DNA of 64,000 nucleotides from Pseudomonas cichorii (GTDB taxonomy: Bacteria; Pseudomonadota; Gammaproteobacteria; Pseudomonadales; Pseudomonadaceae), in NCBI RefSeq assembly GCF_018343775.1, contig NZ_CP074349.1, forward strand, positions 2,532,001 through 2,596,000, read 5' to 3'. This document shows positions 7,504 to 14,694 of this stretch, piece after piece. The stretch's first letter is position 1. Every line of letters begins with the position of its first letter. The notes beneath the pieces were generated by a model. It did no database searches. It saw nothing but the letters and a program-made list of their open reading frames with translations, and had not been told where the DNA came from. A program made the translations under genes and the position numbers.

Positions 7504-7606
7504 GGCGCTTCCCTCTGGTTTCGACAGGCGGGCATGCGCACAGGAACCTGCTGACGGAGGTCAGAAGGCTTCAACTGCGCCCGCCCACCGCGGGTGTGTC
7601 ATTGAG

Positions 7607-7797
7607 TCAGTATCGGGCCGGTCTCCGGGCTCGCGAGGGGTGTCGATATTCAGCCTCGACGCCTTCAGGATCACCTTCCCATGCCGTGGCACAGTGGTTC
7701 TGATCCTCTCTCGCTTACCGTTGCGGGGGCAGCACCGGACTGACTCATGGACAAATGAGCGCACCGGTTTCCCGTTTCACCCCGTGAGGGGCACCCG
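7607..7797 (-). promoter_or_regulatory. Cobalamin riboswitch controlling cbtB-cbtA-cobE-cobM
   Basis: Reading the minus strand, the conserved blocks appear in order: GGGTGAAACGGGAAACCGGTG, then GCTGCCCCCGCAACGGTAAGCG, then GCCCGGAGACCGGCC as the B12-box equivalent near the left end. These are the hallmarks of the adenosylcobalamin aptamer. cbtB starts about 100 bases downstream. A GC-rich hairpin candidate (CCCGCGGTGGGCGGG) lies between the aptamer and the gene, but no clear U-run follows it, so control may act on translation. Confidence 0.92.
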
Positions 7798-7888
7798 TAA
7801 CAAGTTGTGTAGGAGAGCATGGCGGCCCGTGAACGTCAATCTGAACGATTGACCTGCCTTCGACCTCTGCGTAGCCTTGCGCACTTGA

Positions 7889-8060
7889 GGTTCTCGACCT
7901 TGTGCAAAAGGTCGGGCTAAGACGGGAATGCGGTTCAAGCCGCAGCTGCCCCCGCAACTGTAAACGGTGATTTCATTGCATGGCCACTGCGCGAGCGGGA
8001 AGGCGCGATGAATGCCTGTCCTGCCGACACGCCGCCGTAAGCCAGGAGACCTGCCTCGAA
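7889..8060 (+). promoter_or_regulatory. Cobalamin riboswitch controlling cobW-cobN-chlI/chlD
   Basis: The plus strand carries the aptamer blocks GACGGGAATGCGGTTCAAGCCG, AGCTGCCCCCGCAACTGTAA (7944-7963) and the B12 box GCCAGGAGACCTGCC (8041-8055). The variable arm between them is long. cobW begins about 125 bases further on. A 9-bp hairpin at 8120-8142 follows the aptamer and could belong to the expression platform. This aptamer lies back to back with the minus-strand one, their 5' ends only about 90 bases apart. Confidence 0.94.
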
Positions 8061-8119
8061 CCGGGCCACAGGCCCACGAATTCTCACTACAACCGGGCGG
8101 GGTGATCCGGTGGCGAATC

Positions 8120-8180: not shown

Positions 8181-9245
8181 ATGAAAACACTGGCCAAACT
8201 TCCCGTCACCATCGTTACCGGCTTCCTGGGCTCGGGTAAAACCACCTTGTTGCGGCACATGCTCGATAACGCCGAAGGGCGTCGTATCGCGGTGATCGTC
8301 AACGAGTTCGGCGAGCTGGGCATCGACGGCGAAATCCTCAAGCAATGCACCATCGGTTGCAGCGAAGAGGAAGCTGTTGGCCGGGTGTATGAGCTGGCCA
8401 ACGGTTGCCTGTGCTGCACGGTGCAGGAAGAGTTCTTCCCGGTGATGCGCGAACTGGTGTCGCGTCGCGCCGACCTGGACCACATCCTTATCGAAACCTC
8501 GGGTCTGGCGTTGCCAAAACCGCTGGTCCAGGCTTTCCAGTGGCCGGAAATCCGCAACGCCTGCACCGTCGATGCGGTCATAACAGTGGTCGACAGCCCG
8601 GCCGTTGCAGCAGGTACTTTCGCGGCTTTCCCGGATCAAGTGGACGCCCAGCGCAAGCTCGACCCGAACCTTGACCACGAATCCCCGCTACATGAACTGT
8701 TCGCTGACCAGCTGGCCAGCGCTGATCTGGTGATCCTCAACAAGGCCGACATGATCGACGCCGAAGGCCTGGCGGCGGTACGTGCCGAAGTCGCCGAAGA
8801 ACTGCCGCCAGCGGTCAAGGTCATCGAAGCCAGCAGTGGCCGTCTGCCAATCAACGTGTTGCTGGGCATCGGTGCCGAGTCGGAACTGCACATCGATGGT
8901 CGCAAGACTCACCATGACCATCACGACGATGAAGATCATGACGACCACGATCACGATGCTTTCGATTCGATTTCCATCAAACTGCCACAGGCCGACGAAA
9001 GCGTGCTGCTCGATGCCCTGACGCAACTGGTGGTCAAGCACGGCATTCTGCGGGTCAAAGGTTTCGCCGCGATTCCAGGCAAGCCGATGCGCCTGCTGAT
9101 CCAGGGCGTGGGCACACGCTTCGACAAGCATTTCGACCGCGCCTGGCGTGCCGATGAGGAGCGCATCACCAATCTGGTGCTGATCGGCCAGGAGCTGGAT
9201 GCCGTGGCGCTGGAAGCGCAACTCAATGCTGCGATTGCTGGCTGA
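8181..9245 (+). CDS. cobW: CobW family G3E GTPase, cobalt/zinc metallochaperone
   Basis: CobW is a P-loop GTPase that supplies cobalt for corrin ring insertion. The 354-residue protein has GFLGSGKTTLL at residues 14-24 (Walker A), the metal-binding GCLCC motif at 75-79, an ETSGLALPKP switch region, and NKAD for guanine recognition. A histidine/aspartate-rich metal-binding segment, HHDHHDDEDHDDHDHD, precedes the C-terminal CobW_C domain. It is the first gene after the plus-strand cobalamin riboswitch. The cobN start is 3 bases after its stop, consistent with delivery of cobalt to the chelatase encoded next. Confidence 0.95.
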   Translation: MKTLAKLPVTIVTGFLGSGKTTLLRHMLDNAEGRRIAVIVNEFGELGIDGEILKQCTIGCSEEEAVGRVYELANGCLCCTVQEEFFPVMRELVSRRADLDHILIETSGLALPKPLVQAFQWPEIRNACTVDAVITVVDSPAVAAGTFAAFPDQVDAQRKLDPNLDHESPLHELFADQLASADLVILNKADMIDAEGLAAVRAEVAEELPPAVKVIEASSGRLPINVLLGIGAESELHIDGRKTHHDHHDDEDHDDHDHDAFDSISIKLPQADESVLLDALTQLVVKHGILRVKGFAAIPGKPMRLLIQGVGTRFDKHFDRAWRADEERITNLVLIGQELDAVALEAQLNAAIAG

Positions 9246-9248
9246 TCC

Positions 9249-12200
9249 ATGCATTTACTGAGAACCCAGCCGGGCGGTTTCGTACCCGACGACAGCATTG
9301 CCGACCTGGGACAGACGCCGGCCGAGCTGGTGATTCTCTGCAGCGGCGATTCGAGCCTGGCGTTACTGGCCGAAGCCGCTCAGCAACTGCCCGACGACTA
9401 CCCGAGCCTGCGTCTGGCCAATCCGATGCAGGTGCAGAATCACGCCTCGGTGGACTTGTACGTCGATGAGGTGTTGCGCCACGCCAGGGTCATTCTGATT
9501 TCCCTGCATGGCGGCATTGGCTACTGGCGCTACGGTGTCGAGCGCTTGATGGAGCTGGCAGCTCGTGGTGTGCAGGTGATTCTGGTGCCGGGGGATGATC
9601 GTCCCGATCCAGAGCTGAGCGATCTGAGCACTGTGCCTGCCGAGGAGCGTGACCGGCTATGGCAGTTCTTGCGCCAGGGCGGCTTGCAGAATGCGCTGGA
9701 TCTTTATCGTTGCATGGCCAGCAGCTGGCTTGAGCGCGATTACCCATGGGCCGAGCCTCAGCCACTGCCACGCACGGCCATCTATCATCCGCGCAAAGCG
9801 ACGGCCACGCTGCCGGACTGGCAGGCAGACTGGATACCGGGGCATCCGGTGGTTGCGCTGCTGTTCTACCGCTCCCACTTGCAGGCGGCCAATACCGGTT
9901 TCATCGATGTGTTCTGCGAGCGCTTGCAGGCTCAAGGGCTCAATCCCTTGCCGATTGCGCTGGCCAGTCTCAAGGAGCCGGGTTGCCTGACCATGGTCGA
10001 GGACTGGCTGGATGAAGTCGAAGCCGGGCTGATCCTCAATACCACGGGCTTTGCCCAGTCCAGCCCGGAAGCGCCGCATCTGCGACCGTTTCGCCGCAAT
10101 GTGCCCGTGATCCAGGCCATCTGCGCTCAGGACAACCAGCCCGCCTGGCAGGCCAGCGAGCAAGGTCTTGGGGCGCGGGATCTGGCGATGCACATTGCCT
10201 TGCCGGAACTGGACGGGCGGATCATCAGCCGGCCCATCAGCTTCAAGGATCTGGCTTGGCGCAGCGAGCGCAGCCAGTCGGACGTGGTGTGCTATCGCGC
10301 CCATCCCGAGCGCATGGACTTCGTCGCGCAACTGGCACGACGCTGGATCGAACTGGCGCTACTGCCCAATGCCAGCAAGCGGGTAGCGCTGATCCTGGCC
10401 AACTACCCGACCCGCGATGGCCGGATCGGCAACGGGGTAGGGCTCGACACACCTGCAGCGGCGCTGAATATACTGCGCGCCATGCAGGACGAGGGCTATC
10501 CGCTGGCACCGTTGCCCGAAAGCGGCACCGCGCTGATTCAGCAATTGCTGGGTGGCGTCACCAACGATCTGGACAGCATCGACCTGCGTCCTTGCCAGCA
10601 AAGCATGGCGCTGGACGAGTACCTTGATGCCTTCGATGACTTGCCCCAGGCCAGTCGCGATGCGGTAAATGCACGCTGGGGCGCGCCACAGAACGACCCG
10701 ATGTTCCGCAGCGGGCGGATGATGATTGCCGGTATCCGCTTTAGCCTGACCTTTGTCGGCATTCAGCCTGCCCGTGGTTATCAGGTGGACCCCAGTGCGG
10801 TCTATCACGACCCCGATCTGGTGCCGCCTCACGGTTATCTCGCGTTCTACTTCTGGCTGCGCAAGGCGTATGGCGCTCATGCGGTGCTGCATGTGGGCAA
10901 GCATGGCAACCTGGAGTGGCTGCCGGGCAAGGGCGTCGGTCTGTCTCAAGACTGCTGGCCTGATGCAGTGCTGGGCGCGATGCCGAATATCTACCCGTTT
11001 ATCGTCAACGATCCAGGCGAGGGTGCCCAGGCCAAGCGCCGTACCCAGGCGGTCATCATCGACCACCTGATGCCGCCCCTGACCCGTGCCGAAACCTACG
11101 GCCCGCTGCGCAATCTTGAGCGGCTGGCTGACGAATACTACGAGGCGCAACTGCTCGACCCGCGCCGGGCGCAGGAACTGCAACGGGACATTCTCAAGCT
11201 GGTGCGTGAAACCCGTATTGACCGTGAACTGGCGCTGGACGACGCCATCGACAGCGACGCCGACGCCGCAATCTGGCTGCCGCGTCTGGACACCTATCTG
11301 TGTGACTTGAAGGAGTCGCAGATCCGCGATGGCCTGCATGTTTTCGGTCAATCCCCCCAAGGCCGTCTGCGTATCGACACGCTGCTGGCACTGCTGCGCA
11401 TTCCCCGTGGCGATGGCCGTGGTGCGCAGTCGAGTGTGCTGCGGGTGCTGGCCAAGGCTCTGGCGCTGGATTTCGACCCGCTGGATTGCGAGCTGGCCGA
11501 GCCCTGGAACGGTCCGCGTCCGTCCGTCTTGCTGGTAGTGAGTGACGACCCATGGCGCACCACGGGCGATACCCGGGAGCGGCTTGAGCTGTATGCCGCG
11601 ATTCTGATCGAACGCATCGTGAACGAAGAGGCGATTGACGATCTGCCGGATCATCCTGAACTGACACTGGTTCTCGAAAGCCTTCGCAATGTGGTCGCCC
11701 CGCGTCTGGATGCCTGCGGTCCCGAAGAGATGCGCGGTCTGCTGGATGCCCTGAGTGGCCGATTCGTGCCAGCCGGCCCGAGCGGTGCGCCGAGTCGCGG
11801 GCGGCTGGACGTGCTGCCCACGGGCCGCAACTTCTTTACCGTGGATGTGCGCAACCTGCCGACTACCACGGCCTGGCGAATCGGTTTTCAATCGGCCAAC
11901 CTGTTGCTGGAGCGCCATCTTCAGGATCATGGCGACCACTTGCGCCAGCTCGGCCTGTCGGTCTGGGGCACGGCCACCATGCGCACCGGTGGCGACGATA
12001 TTGCCCAGGCCATGGCCCTGATGGGCGTGCGTCCGGTCTGGGCGACGGGTAGCCAGCGGGTCGATGATTTCGAGATTCTGCCCCTGAGCCTGCTGGACCG
12101 GCCTCGTGTGGATGTGACCTTGCGAGTATCCGGGTTCTTCCGTGATGCCTTTGCCAACCTGATCCGCCTGTTTGATGCCGCTGTGCAGGCCGTTGCTGCT

Positions 12201-13013
12201 CTGGATGAGCCGGACGATCAGAATCCGCTGGCGGCCCGTGTCCGTGAAGAGCGCCGCAGCTTTCAGGAGTCCGGGCTGAGCGAAGACGAAGCGGCGCGTC
12301 AGGCGGGTTGGCGCATTTTCGGCGCCAAGCCCGGCGCCTATGGCGCGGGTGTGCAGGGTGCCATCGACGGACGTCTGTGGCAGAGCCGCGACGATCTGGC
12401 CGAGGTCTATCTGAACTGGGGCGGCTATGCCTACGGCGCGGCTGATGAAGGCACGCCGGCTCGCCAGCAGTTCGCGCATCGGCTGACGCAGGTTCAGGCG
12501 GTGTTGCAGAATCAGGATAACCGCGAGCATGACCTGCTGGATTCCAACGATTACTACCAGTTTCAGGGTGGCATGCTGGCGGCCGCCGAAAGCCTGAGCG
12601 GCCAGAAAACCGCCAGTTACCATGGCGACAACAGCCAGCCGGATCTACCCAGGATTCGCACCCTCAAGGAAGAACTGAACCGGGTGGTCCGCAGTCGTGC
12701 GGCCAATCCGAAGTGGATCGAAGGCGTCAAGCGTCATGGCTATAAAGGTGCGTTCGAAATGGCTGCGACCGTGGACTTTCTGTTTGCGTTCGATGCCACC
12801 ACTGAACTGATCGACGACCACCAATATGCACTGCTGGCCGATGCCTACCTGCTTGATCCGTCGACCCGCGACTTCATCCGCGAGCACAACCCCGATGCCC
12901 TGCGCGACATGACCGAGCGTATGCTCGAAGCCCAGCAGCGCGGCCTCTGGCAGGAGCCGGGTGACTATCGTGAAGCGCTGGAAGACCTGTTGCTGGACAT
13001 AGAAGAGAGCTGA
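9249..13013 (+). CDS. cobN: Cobaltochelatase large subunit CobN
   Basis: CobN is the large catalytic subunit that inserts Co(II) into hydrogenobyrinate a,c-diamide, driven by ATP hydrolysis in the partner AAA+ subunits. The protein has 1254 residues, the usual size. Family landmarks seen include the HVGKHGNLEWLPGKG motif with its conserved His and Glu, the IYPFIVNDPGEGAQAKRR motif, a WGTATMRTGGDDIAQAMALMG block, and ENAKP-like IFGAKPGAYGAGVQG near the C-terminus. It lies between cobW and the chlI/chlD gene, and its stop overlaps the next start as ATGA. No cobS or cobT is visible. The partner subunits here are therefore inferred to be the ChlI/ChlD-type proteins that follow. Confidence 0.96.
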   Translation: MHLLRTQPGGFVPDDSIADLGQTPAELVILCSGDSSLALLAEAAQQLPDDYPSLRLANPMQVQNHASVDLYVDEVLRHARVILISLHGGIGYWRYGVERLMELAARGVQVILVPGDDRPDPELSDLSTVPAEERDRLWQFLRQGGLQNALDLYRCMASSWLERDYPWAEPQPLPRTAIYHPRKATATLPDWQADWIPGHPVVALLFYRSHLQAANTGFIDVFCERLQAQGLNPLPIALASLKEPGCLTMVEDWLDEVEAGLILNTTGFAQSSPEAPHLRPFRRNVPVIQAICAQDNQPAWQASEQGLGARDLAMHIALPELDGRIISRPISFKDLAWRSERSQSDVVCYRAHPERMDFVAQLARRWIELALLPNASKRVALILANYPTRDGRIGNGVGLDTPAAALNILRAMQDEGYPLAPLPESGTALIQQLLGGVTNDLDSIDLRPCQQSMALDEYLDAFDDLPQASRDAVNARWGAPQNDPMFRSGRMMIAGIRFSLTFVGIQPARGYQVDPSAVYHDPDLVPPHGYLAFYFWLRKAYGAHAVLHVGKHGNLEWLPGKGVGLSQDCWPDAVLGAMPNIYPFIVNDPGEGAQAKRRTQAVIIDHLMPPLTRAETYGPLRNLERLADEYYEAQLLDPRRAQELQRDILKLVRETRIDRELALDDAIDSDADAAIWLPRLDTYLCDLKESQIRDGLHVFGQSPQGRLRIDTLLALLRIPRGDGRGAQSSVLRVLAKALALDFDPLDCELAEPWNGPRPSVLLVVSDDPWRTTGDTRERLELYAAILIERIVNEEAIDDLPDHPELTLVLESLRNVVAPRLDACGPEEMRGLLDALSGRFVPAGPSGAPSRGRLDVLPTGRNFFTVDVRNLPTTTAWRIGFQSANLLLERHLQDHGDHLRQLGLSVWGTATMRTGGDDIAQAMALMGVRPVWATGSQRVDDFEILPLSLLDRPRVDVTLRVSGFFRDAFANLIRLFDAAVQAVAALDEPDDQNPLAARVREERRSFQESGLSEDEAARQAGWRIFGAKPGAYGAGVQGAIDGRLWQSRDDLAEVYLNWGGYAYGAADEGTPARQQFAHRLTQVQAVLQNQDNREHDLLDSNDYYQFQGGMLAAAESLSGQKTASYHGDNSQPDLPRIRTLKEELNRVVRSRAANPKWIEGVKRHGYKGAFEMAATVDFLFAFDATTELIDDHQYALLADAYLLDPSTRDFIREHNPDALRDMTERMLEAQQRGLWQEPGDYREALEDLLLDIEES

Positions 13014-14032
13014 TGACAAGCATGACCGATACCCCGCATTTTCCCCTGGCAGCAGTGGTCGGCGCCGAGGACTTGAAGCTGGCGCTGTGCCTGACGGCCA
13101 TCGACCCGAAAATCGGCGGTGTACTGATCGAAGGGCCGCGTGGCATGGCCAAGTCGACCCTGGCCCGTGGGCTGGCGGACTTGCTGGCCAGCGGTCAGTT
13201 TGTCACCTTGCCGTTGGGCGCTACCGAAGAGCGGCTGGTCGGCACCCTGGATCTGGATGCGGCGCTGTCCGAAGGTCGTGCGCAGTTTTCCCCCGGCGTA
13301 CTGGCCAAGGCAGACGGTGGCGTGCTGTATGTGGATGAGGTCAACCTGCTGGCCGATCATCTGGTAGATCTGCTGCTGGATGTTGCTGCCAGTGGCACCA
13401 ATCTGGTGGAGCGCGATGGCATTTCCCACCGTCATGCGGCGCGCTTCGTGCTGATCGGCACCATGAATCCTGAAGAGGGCGAGTTGCGTCCGCAACTGCT
13501 GGACCGTTTCGGTTTGAATGTGGCCCTGAGTGGGCAGACGTTGCCGACCGAGCGCAGCCAGATCATCCGCCGTCGTCTGGATTTCGATGCCGACCCCCAG
13601 GCTTTTTGTCTGGCGTGGCAAGGTCAGCAGCAGGCTTTGCAGCAACGTTGCGAGCAGGCCCGTGCGCTGTTGTCTGCCATCGAGCTTGATGATCGTTCGC
13701 TGGGGCTTGTGACGGAGCGCTGTTTTGCGGCAGGTGTCGATGGCATGCGCGCTGATCTGGTCTGGCTGCGTGCTGCGCGAGCCCATGCTGCATGGCGTGG
13801 TGCCAGTGAGATCGAAGAGCAGGATATCGACGCGGTGGCCGAGTTTGCCTTGCGTCATCGGCGTCGCGATCCTGCGCCCTCGGCACAGAATCCAGAACCG
13901 CCAGCGCCCAGCCAGGGCACACCTCAGGAACCTCAGCCTCAGAACGGGCAGGGCAACTGGGGGGAATTGCCTGCCCGGCCTGTGCCCACCGGTGCGCGCC
14001 GCGAAGTGCCGAGCTGGCCAAAAAAGCCCTAG
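13013..14032 (+). CDS. ChlI-like AAA+ ATPase subunit of cobalt chelatase (zero-frame product)
   Basis: This is the 339-residue zero-frame product. It has the magnesium-chelatase-type AAA+ core: IEGPRGMAKSTLARG with Walker A at 41-49, GGVLYVDEVNLL with Walker B at 102-113, the IGTMNPEEGELRPQLLDRFG sensor region, and a helical lid. A proline- and glutamine-rich linker (about residues 285-320) follows before a short end, PSWPKKP. The start overlaps the cobN stop as ATGA. The last codons CCA AAA AAG CCC TAG lie on a -1 slippery site with a strong stem directly after it, so a share of ribosomes should continue into the VWA domain. The short form would act as the ChlI/CobS-like ATPase and the fused form as the ChlD/CobT-like subunit. 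That division is inference. Confidence 0.93.
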   Translation: MTSMTDTPHFPLAAVVGAEDLKLALCLTAIDPKIGGVLIEGPRGMAKSTLARGLADLLASGQFVTLPLGATEERLVGTLDLDAALSEGRAQFSPGVLAKADGGVLYVDEVNLLADHLVDLLLDVAASGTNLVERDGISHRHAARFVLIGTMNPEEGELRPQLLDRFGLNVALSGQTLPTERSQIIRRRLDFDADPQAFCLAWQGQQQALQQRCEQARALLSAIELDDRSLGLVTERCFAAGVDGMRADLVWLRAARAHAAWRGASEIEEQDIDAVAEFALRHRRRDPAPSAQNPEPPAPSQGTPQEPQPQNGQGNWGELPARPVPTGARREVPSWPKKP

Positions 14033-14067
14033 GCATCCGCCCTCGTTCGGCAAAGGGGGCGGATGCC
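14020..14067 (+). promoter_or_regulatory. Programmed -1 ribosomal frameshift signal in chlI/chlD
   Basis: The heptamer A AAA AAG at 14020-14026 is in the correct zero-frame phase (CCA AAA AAG) and is the same slippery sequence as dnaX of E. coli. After a 5-base spacer holding the zero-frame stop TAG, GGCATCCGCCC (14032-14042) pairs perfectly with GGGCGGATGCC (14057-14067). One wobble and one more pair extend it inward, leaving a 10-base loop. A -1 slip opens 222 further codons containing the VWA domain. No ATG or GTG start for that domain was found in its own frame near the junction, which favours frameshifting over separate initiation. Confidence 0.88.
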
Positions 14068-14694
14068 AGTCCCCGTCCTGGCAGCCTGACTTCCGGGCGT
14101 CATGGTGCAGCGCGTTCAGGCATCGATGGTGCGATTGCCTGGCTGCCGACGCTGTTGCGTGGTCGTCCACAAAGCCGCCACGATCTGGTACGCCAGCCTC
14201 GCAGCAGTCGGTCGACCGAGTTGTTGCTGGTCATTGTTGATGCCTCGGCCTCGACACGTCGTCATCAGGCGCTCAGTCAGGCCAAGGGCGTGCTGGCTCA
14301 GATCTTCGACGAGGCCTATCGCCGTCGTGCCAGACTGGCGCTGCTGACTGCCAGCGGCAATGTTCCCCAGTGGAAACATCAAGGCCTCAAGGCTTCGGCG
14401 GCATTACGGCCATGGCTGGATGCGTTGGGGGCGGGCGGAGGAACGCCGTTGTTCGCAGCCATCGAGCAGGCAAAAGACTGGTTGAAAATGCGACACCAGC
14501 GTTATCCCGCTGAACATTTGCGTGTGCTGATCCTCACCGATGGCCGGGTCAAGGATATGCCGCCGTGTTCAGGGTTCGACTGCGAGAGTCTGCTGATCGA
14601 TATCGAGAAAGGGCCTATCCGGCTGGGCCGGGCGCGGGAACTGGCGCTAAGGCTGGGAGCCGGTTACCGGCATCTTGAAGAGCTTCGCGAATGA
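14026..14694 (+). CDS. VWA (ChlD-like) domain reached by -1 frameshift from the AAA+ gene
   Basis: This is the second part of the predicted 560-residue fusion read after the -1 slip. It begins with a basic linker (ALGIRPRSAKGADASPRPGS) like the one before the integrin I domain in ChlD/BchD. The von Willebrand A domain follows: LLLVIVDASASTRRHQAL carries the MIDAS DxSxS, GGGTPL the conserved threonine region, and LRVLILTDGRVKDMPP the LTDG motif. ChlD/CobT proteins use this domain to bind the catalytic subunit, here CobN. The only start-like codon in this frame is a TTG at 14155 without a good ribosome site. Starting there would lose the linker but keep the VWA domain, so it remains a weaker alternative. 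The stop lies inside a REP-like palindrome. Confidence 0.85.
   Translation, partial: ALGIRPRSAKGADASPRPGSLTSGRHGAARSGIDGAIAWLPTLLRGRPQSRHDLVRQPRSSRSTELLLVIVDASASTRRHQALSQAKGVLAQIFDEAYRRRARLALLTASGNVPQWKHQGLKASAALRPWLDALGAGGGTPLFAAIEQAKDWLKMRHQRYPAEHLRVLILTDGRVKDMPPCSGFDCESLLIDIEKGPIRLGRARELALRLGAGYRHLEELRE

Follow-up and report, generated by a model that had tools for sequence, protein, structure and literature searches.

How could a gene whose coding sequence is interrupted by a stop codon provide two subunits of one enzyme? The question is raised by chlID, a gene in a 64,000-nucleotide stretch of the Pseudomonas cichorii genome (contig NZ_CP074349.1, positions 2,532,001 to 2,596,000). We refer to this whole stretch as the window and give all positions in its numbering. 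chlID (13013..14694, + strand) very probably produces two cobaltochelatase subunits by programmed -1 ribosomal frameshifting, a reading that rests on sequence comparison. Its predicted proteins are ChlI/ChlD-like, and the predicted gene fits the fs-chlD layout, with a ChlI-like ATPase open reading frame (ORF) and, behind it in the -1 frame, a VWA ORF. Published work already describes frameshifting for this gene family, also in Pseudomonas, and the window gene is a further clean example.

Reading frames, slip site and stem-loop

ORF and domain scans identify the zero frame (13013..14032, + strand) as a 339-residue AAA+ ATPase resembling the small subunit ChlI/CobS. Its ATG at 13013 overlaps the stop codon of cobN. 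The frame ends CCA AAA AAG CCC TAG, giving the protein tail ...PSWPKKP*. This end contains the slippery heptamer A_AAA_AAG (14020..14026), whose first A is the third base of a codon, the phase needed for -1 tandem slippage; the zero-frame stop TAG (14030..14032) lies 10 nt past that A. The string AAAAAAG occurs twice on the + strand of the window (14020 and 37923) and five more times on the - strand.

The open stretch of the -1 frame runs from 13810 to 14694. After a slip, 14026..14694 would be read as 222 codons and a stop, encoding a basic linker and a VWA domain that form the C-terminal part of a 560-residue long product, with KK|ALGIRPR... at the junction. The earliest GTG of this frame is at 14290, inside the VWA domain, and no ATG or GTG precedes it; TTG codons are found at 14155 (the first), 14221 and 14224. 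AAA_5, Mg_chelatase and AAA_lid_2 match the first part and VWA_2 the second, and both domains are intact. The two parts correspond to N- and C-terminal stretches of TIGR02442 (putative cobaltochelatase), scoring 414.7 and 69.1 bits when scanned separately; the whole-protein cut-off of 779.45 applies to the joined product.

A predicted stimulatory stem-loop (14032..14067, + strand) begins 5 nt past the heptamer. It has a 13-bp stem, made of 11 perfect pairs followed by U-G and C-G, and a 10-nt loop. Its folding energy is -28.9 kcal/mol, compared with a mean of -18.54 (standard deviation 2.85) for shuffled sequences (z = -3.64), and none of 200 shuffles was equally stable. The sequence-only reading of this locus had described the same gene, from 13013 to 14694 with products of 339 and 560 residues, a correctly phased A AAA AAG, a -1 frame open for 222 codons and lacking an ATG or GTG near the junction, a VWA domain in that frame, and a 5-base spacer before an 11-bp perfect stem extended by a wobble and one further pair; every one of these points holds. 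As a separate candidate, we considered a Shine-Dalgarno-like (SD-like) stimulator 5' of the Pseudomonas heptamer and rejected it: pairing with the 16S tail averages -7.0 against a background of -6.0, and 47% of background sites match or beat the median site.

We infer from these features that the shift occurs in this species, and likewise its efficiency and the roles of the subunits. Ribosomes staying in frame would stop at the TAG and release the 339-residue AAA+ ATPase in the CobS/ChlI role. The stem would stall ribosomes, some of which would slip on A_AAA_AAG, both Lys codons re-pairing one base back. Slipped ribosomes would go on through the linker and VWA domain to give the 560-residue CobT/ChlD-like subunit, and both subunits would act with CobN, encoded just upstream, in the cobalt insertion step of aerobic B12 synthesis.

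Conservation across Pseudomonas and the missing partner genes

A search of 298 genomes of the genus gave a DNA match to the gene in 281. Our parsing covered 181 distinct loci rather than every one of the 281 genomes; 176 of these loci hold the junction and five run off the contig. An in-phase A_AAA_AAG shortly before the zero-frame stop is present in 171/176. That choice of loci by itself fixes both Lys codons and the third-position A in the 171, and 171/176 is the unbiased count. The distance from heptamer to stop is identical in 169 of the 171 loci, and the stop itself is TAG in 110, TGA in 57 and TAA in four. Two of the five other loci (L168, L172) keep the site behind an upstream indel. 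In the remaining three (L171, L196, L219) the heptamer is broken and the VWA part stands outside the -1 relation, reflecting either gene decay or sequence error. In a separate collection, from which L294 and L304 were unusable, the heptamer is found in 53/53 distinct named Pseudomonas loci with a junction and in 3/3 loci with other titles. One record titled Pantoea sp. Cy-639 (L299) carries a Pseudomonas-like copy with the heptamer and 72% identity to the window ATPase; the title may be wrong.

The stem is conserved as a structure. The register seen in the window has at least 10 of its 13 pairs in 126/171 heptamer loci, and it pairs 84.6% of cells across the 171 loci, against 34-49% in eight slid registers. 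Pair 10-35 changes on both sides: among the 126 loci it is C-G in 54, T-A in 53, T-G in 19 and C-A in none. On the 5' side the change is silent, falling in the third position of an Ile codon; on the 3' side GAT becomes AAT, which replaces Asp by Asn, and here the protein appears to have followed the RNA. On an ATPase-part tree covering 125 loci, there are at least 13 changes at one of the two positions and at least six at the other. The sequence-only reading had proposed this comparison of orthologues, taking a broken signal with both ORFs kept as evidence against itself; none of the parsed loci breaks the signal and retains the -1 arrangement.

Seventeen genomes of the genus gave no DNA match, and a protein search of these returned weak, distant matches only (best E 1.9e-8). 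The same was true of G169, whose DNA match was marginal. Sixteen of the 17 also lack a CobN match over cut-off. In the exception, G273, CobN is over cut-off and chlID was not found, but cobN starts at base 93 of a contig in a 1200-contig assembly, so that an assembly gap may hide chlID. Six of the gene-less genomes (G060, G082, G180, G185, G242, G260) encode an ORF of 1408-1491 residues that matches CobN below cut-off and would be BchH-like by its size.

Elsewhere in the 5.98-Mb P. cichorii genome no separate gene for the small or medium subunit was found. Neither CobT (TIGR01651) nor PD_CobS (TIGR01650) has any match at E <= 0.001 in the whole genome, and the only strong BchI/ChlI match is the window gene, two others scoring 26.5 and 23.1 bits. 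Together with the adjacent CobN, these results support the earlier proposal that the fused gene replaces separate CobS and CobT genes. The surrounding genes belong to cobalamin metabolism. cobN, for the large cobaltochelatase subunit (9249..13013, + strand), scores 1740.8 bits with TIGR02257 (cut-off 822.05) and is preceded by cobW (8181..9245, + strand; TIGR02475 over cut-off). A cobalamin riboswitch (RF00174, 101.3 bits; 7871..8072, + strand) lies 5' of cobW-cobN-chlID. A second, divergent one (RF00174, 100.4 bits; 7599-7813, - strand) heads the cbtA-side genes, and behind it the - strand carries cbtA, an ORF resembling the C-terminal part of CbiG, and cobM.

Single-frame relatives and other explanations

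Within the order, 194 genomes were searched; 46 match at E <= 1e-40, with one copy each, and 42 of these lie outside the window's genus. From the 42 we fetched 37 distinct loci. Eleven are split, nine with A_AAA_AAG at or next to the zero-frame stop and two (L180, L181) with another geometry; the other 26 are one in-frame ORF of 564-658 residues. CobS was over its cut-off (558.55 bits) in 0/42 out-of-genus genomes, with weaker matches in 14, of which those in G352 and G461 (458 and 464 bits) may be real CobS. CobN is over cut-off in 64 of 68 genomes, these 68 comprising the 48 of one single-ORF genus and 20 others, 19 of them the source of single ORFs from outside that genus. In single-ORF organisms either the fused protein alone suffices or a short form is made another way. 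In 28 other single-ORF genes there is a weak enrichment of shift sites in the linker, which is lysine-rich: heptamers that have a -1 stop close by number 11 in 3,640 linker codons, compared with 11 in about 12,790 codons elsewhere (Fisher 0.004), one of the 28, L314 (Marinomonas sp. MED121), being itself of the Marinomonas-type genus.

Several results weigh against programmed frameshifting as the source of two subunits in the window. The predominance of unsplit genes in the other genera is the first of these: with a single copy and mostly no CobS, such relatives suggest that some organisms may do without a separate short product. The tree-based independent-pairs test of pair 10-35 had too few pairs for significance. 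Loci outside the 126 often have a shorter stem with the same start, and in a few distant members (e.g. L034, L039) the structure is weaker or of another kind. Finally, the three cassettes measured in E. coli shifted at 63, 40 and 10%, their A runs being 11, 9 and 7 long (Antonov 2013; PMC3711429), and none of the runs given there is A_AAA_AAG.

The unsplit relatives, together with the prevalence of CobN among the 68 genomes, could mean that the shift does occur but only the long product matters, the short one not being a required small subunit. We consider this unlikely, as Pseudomonas keeps the zero-frame stop, almost always at the same distance, though one base would fuse the frames; the published reading of fs-chlD (PMC9227772, in the passage cited below) also differs. 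Transcriptional slippage on the A run, altering the mRNA so that normal translation yields the fused product, is less probable still. The site is indeed a run of six As, but the runs that slip in the known cases described in PMC5009743 have nine, and the stop and covarying stem at a fixed distance point to the ribosome; the G that follows the run is present in the heptamer loci by definition. We give equally little credence to the synthesis of two separate proteins, the VWA part being translated alone by coupling or internal initiation, for example at TTG 14155. Three TTG codons are available, and initiation at the downstream ORF was seen in some of the 2013 experiments on other clusters (PMC3711429). 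The only in-frame ATG or GTG starts, however, lie from 14290 onwards, inside the VWA domain; the frozen heptamer and stem would be left unexplained; and the single-ORF relatives produce both parts as one protein. A pseudogene or sequencing error, as the frame-breaking changes in five of 176 genus loci might suggest, can be dismissed, given two intact domains and the same arrangement in nearly all genus loci and every named locus.

A mirror-image candidate and comparison with known systems

A different signal was found in the Marinomonas-type genus (the genus of G467), where the gene is present in 45/48 genomes. We compared 43 distinct full single ORFs; G509, with a short ORF, and G393, whose locus L174 carries the site, are not among them. 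In 28 of the 43 an in-phase G_GGA_AAG occurs once per ORF, at about residue 375 in the interdomain linker (the loci include L120, L112, L114, L117 and L325-L355). The six bases before it are GAGGTG or GAGGTA in 26/28, GAGATG in L340 and GAGGTT in L343. For a codon comparison the 28 ORFs were picked by protein sequence alone (E..PGK). Codon choice at the site is invariant: GAG in 28/28 against 40% of Glu codons in the rest of these genes, ACG in 21/21 at Thr against 22%, CCG in 28/28 against 27%, GGA in 28/28 against 8%, and AAG in 28/28 against 27%. No other of the 33 conserved Gly columns exceeds a GGA fraction of 0.25. A stop in the -1 frame follows 3, 5 or 13 codons on (18, 6 and 4 ORFs), the chance of one within 5 codons being 36%. 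Pairing of the 24 nt 5' of G_GGA_AAG with the 16S tail averages -11.3 against a background of -5.4, and 2.4% of background sites match the median site. The heptamer is rated highly shift-prone in E. coli in a 2016 review, which also states that the polarity of dnaX is seemingly reversed in some bacteria (PMC5009743).

By its sequence, this site leads us to favour, by a narrow measure, a frameshift whose polarity is flipped between genera: in the Marinomonas-type genus GAG-GTR-RCG-CCG-GGA-AAG, an SD-like element plus G_GGA_AAG, would divert some of the ribosomes to the -1 frame; an early stop there would release an ATPase-only small subunit, the long form being the default. Set against this are the absence of the site from 15/43 ORFs, including MED121, and two imperfect variants (L344 keeps PGK with Asp in place of Glu and GGT; L336 has GGA AAG after TCA). 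The counts over the 28 ORFs are also not independent. No shared hairpin was found behind G_GGA_AAG: individual members do form structures (-7.4 to -21.2 kcal/mol), but folding the gapless consensus gives -0.34, near zero. The spacing from the SD-like element to the heptamer is shorter than in dnaX. A literature search that did not reach Antonov 2020 (msaa081) found no earlier mention of this signal. If the proposal is true, selection would favour making both products, whichever is the default, and would repeatedly have favoured genes that yield chelatase subunits of two lengths; it would also suggest a source of the small subunit for genomes with CobN and one fused gene. The remaining interest of this analysis lies mainly in this lead, which is outside the window.

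For the window gene itself, the statement in the sequence-only reading that -1 frameshifting in chlD-type genes of cobalamin producers had been described is borne out by the literature, Pseudomonas included. In Antonov 2013, 23 'magnesium chelatase' genes from six genera, among them Pseudomonas, are reported as one cluster of -1 frameshift genes (PMC3711429). The passage on these genes in the review by Atkins 2016 names Pseudomonas, describes A_AAA_AAR as under strong purifying selection, and prints a P. protegens stem that is nearly that of the window (PMC5009743). Kuznetsov 2022, citing Antonov 2020 (msaa081), includes P. aeruginosa among the species in which fs-chlD provides both the small and the medium subunit of Co-chelatase (PMC9227772). 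A further review lists chlI next to chlD for P. denitrificans ATCC 13867, frameshifting being unmentioned in that passage (PMC8123684); this pair is presumably the same gene as that of the window. The window gene matters mainly because annotation can list two genes. The published inference for the Pseudomonas A_AAA_AAG form gains strength from the counts across the genus and from the Asp/Asn replacement that tracks the RNA pairing.

Compared with the published fs-chlD genes, the window has the same gene in the same genus, with split ATPase and VWA frames, an A_AAA_AAR site and a GC-rich stem, and nothing essential differs. The review's passage on fs-chlD describes the stem sequence as lacking strong conservation and suggests a triplex (PMC5009743), whereas here one covarying register is found in 126/171 loci. 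The alphaproteobacterial-type CobNST system offers a parallel in the CobS and CobT roles proposed alike with CobN, although the window genome matches neither family. The shift site of E. coli dnaX is likewise A_AAA_AAG with a downstream stem, and there too short and long forms of an AAA+ subunit come from one gene. The two systems differ in that no upstream SD-like element stands out in Pseudomonas, and in that the shifted product is the short one in E. coli dnaX (PMC5009743) and would be the long one in Pseudomonas chlID. The mirror-image candidate would share the polarity of E. coli dnaX, its short form arising from the shift, and would be the reverse of Pseudomonas.

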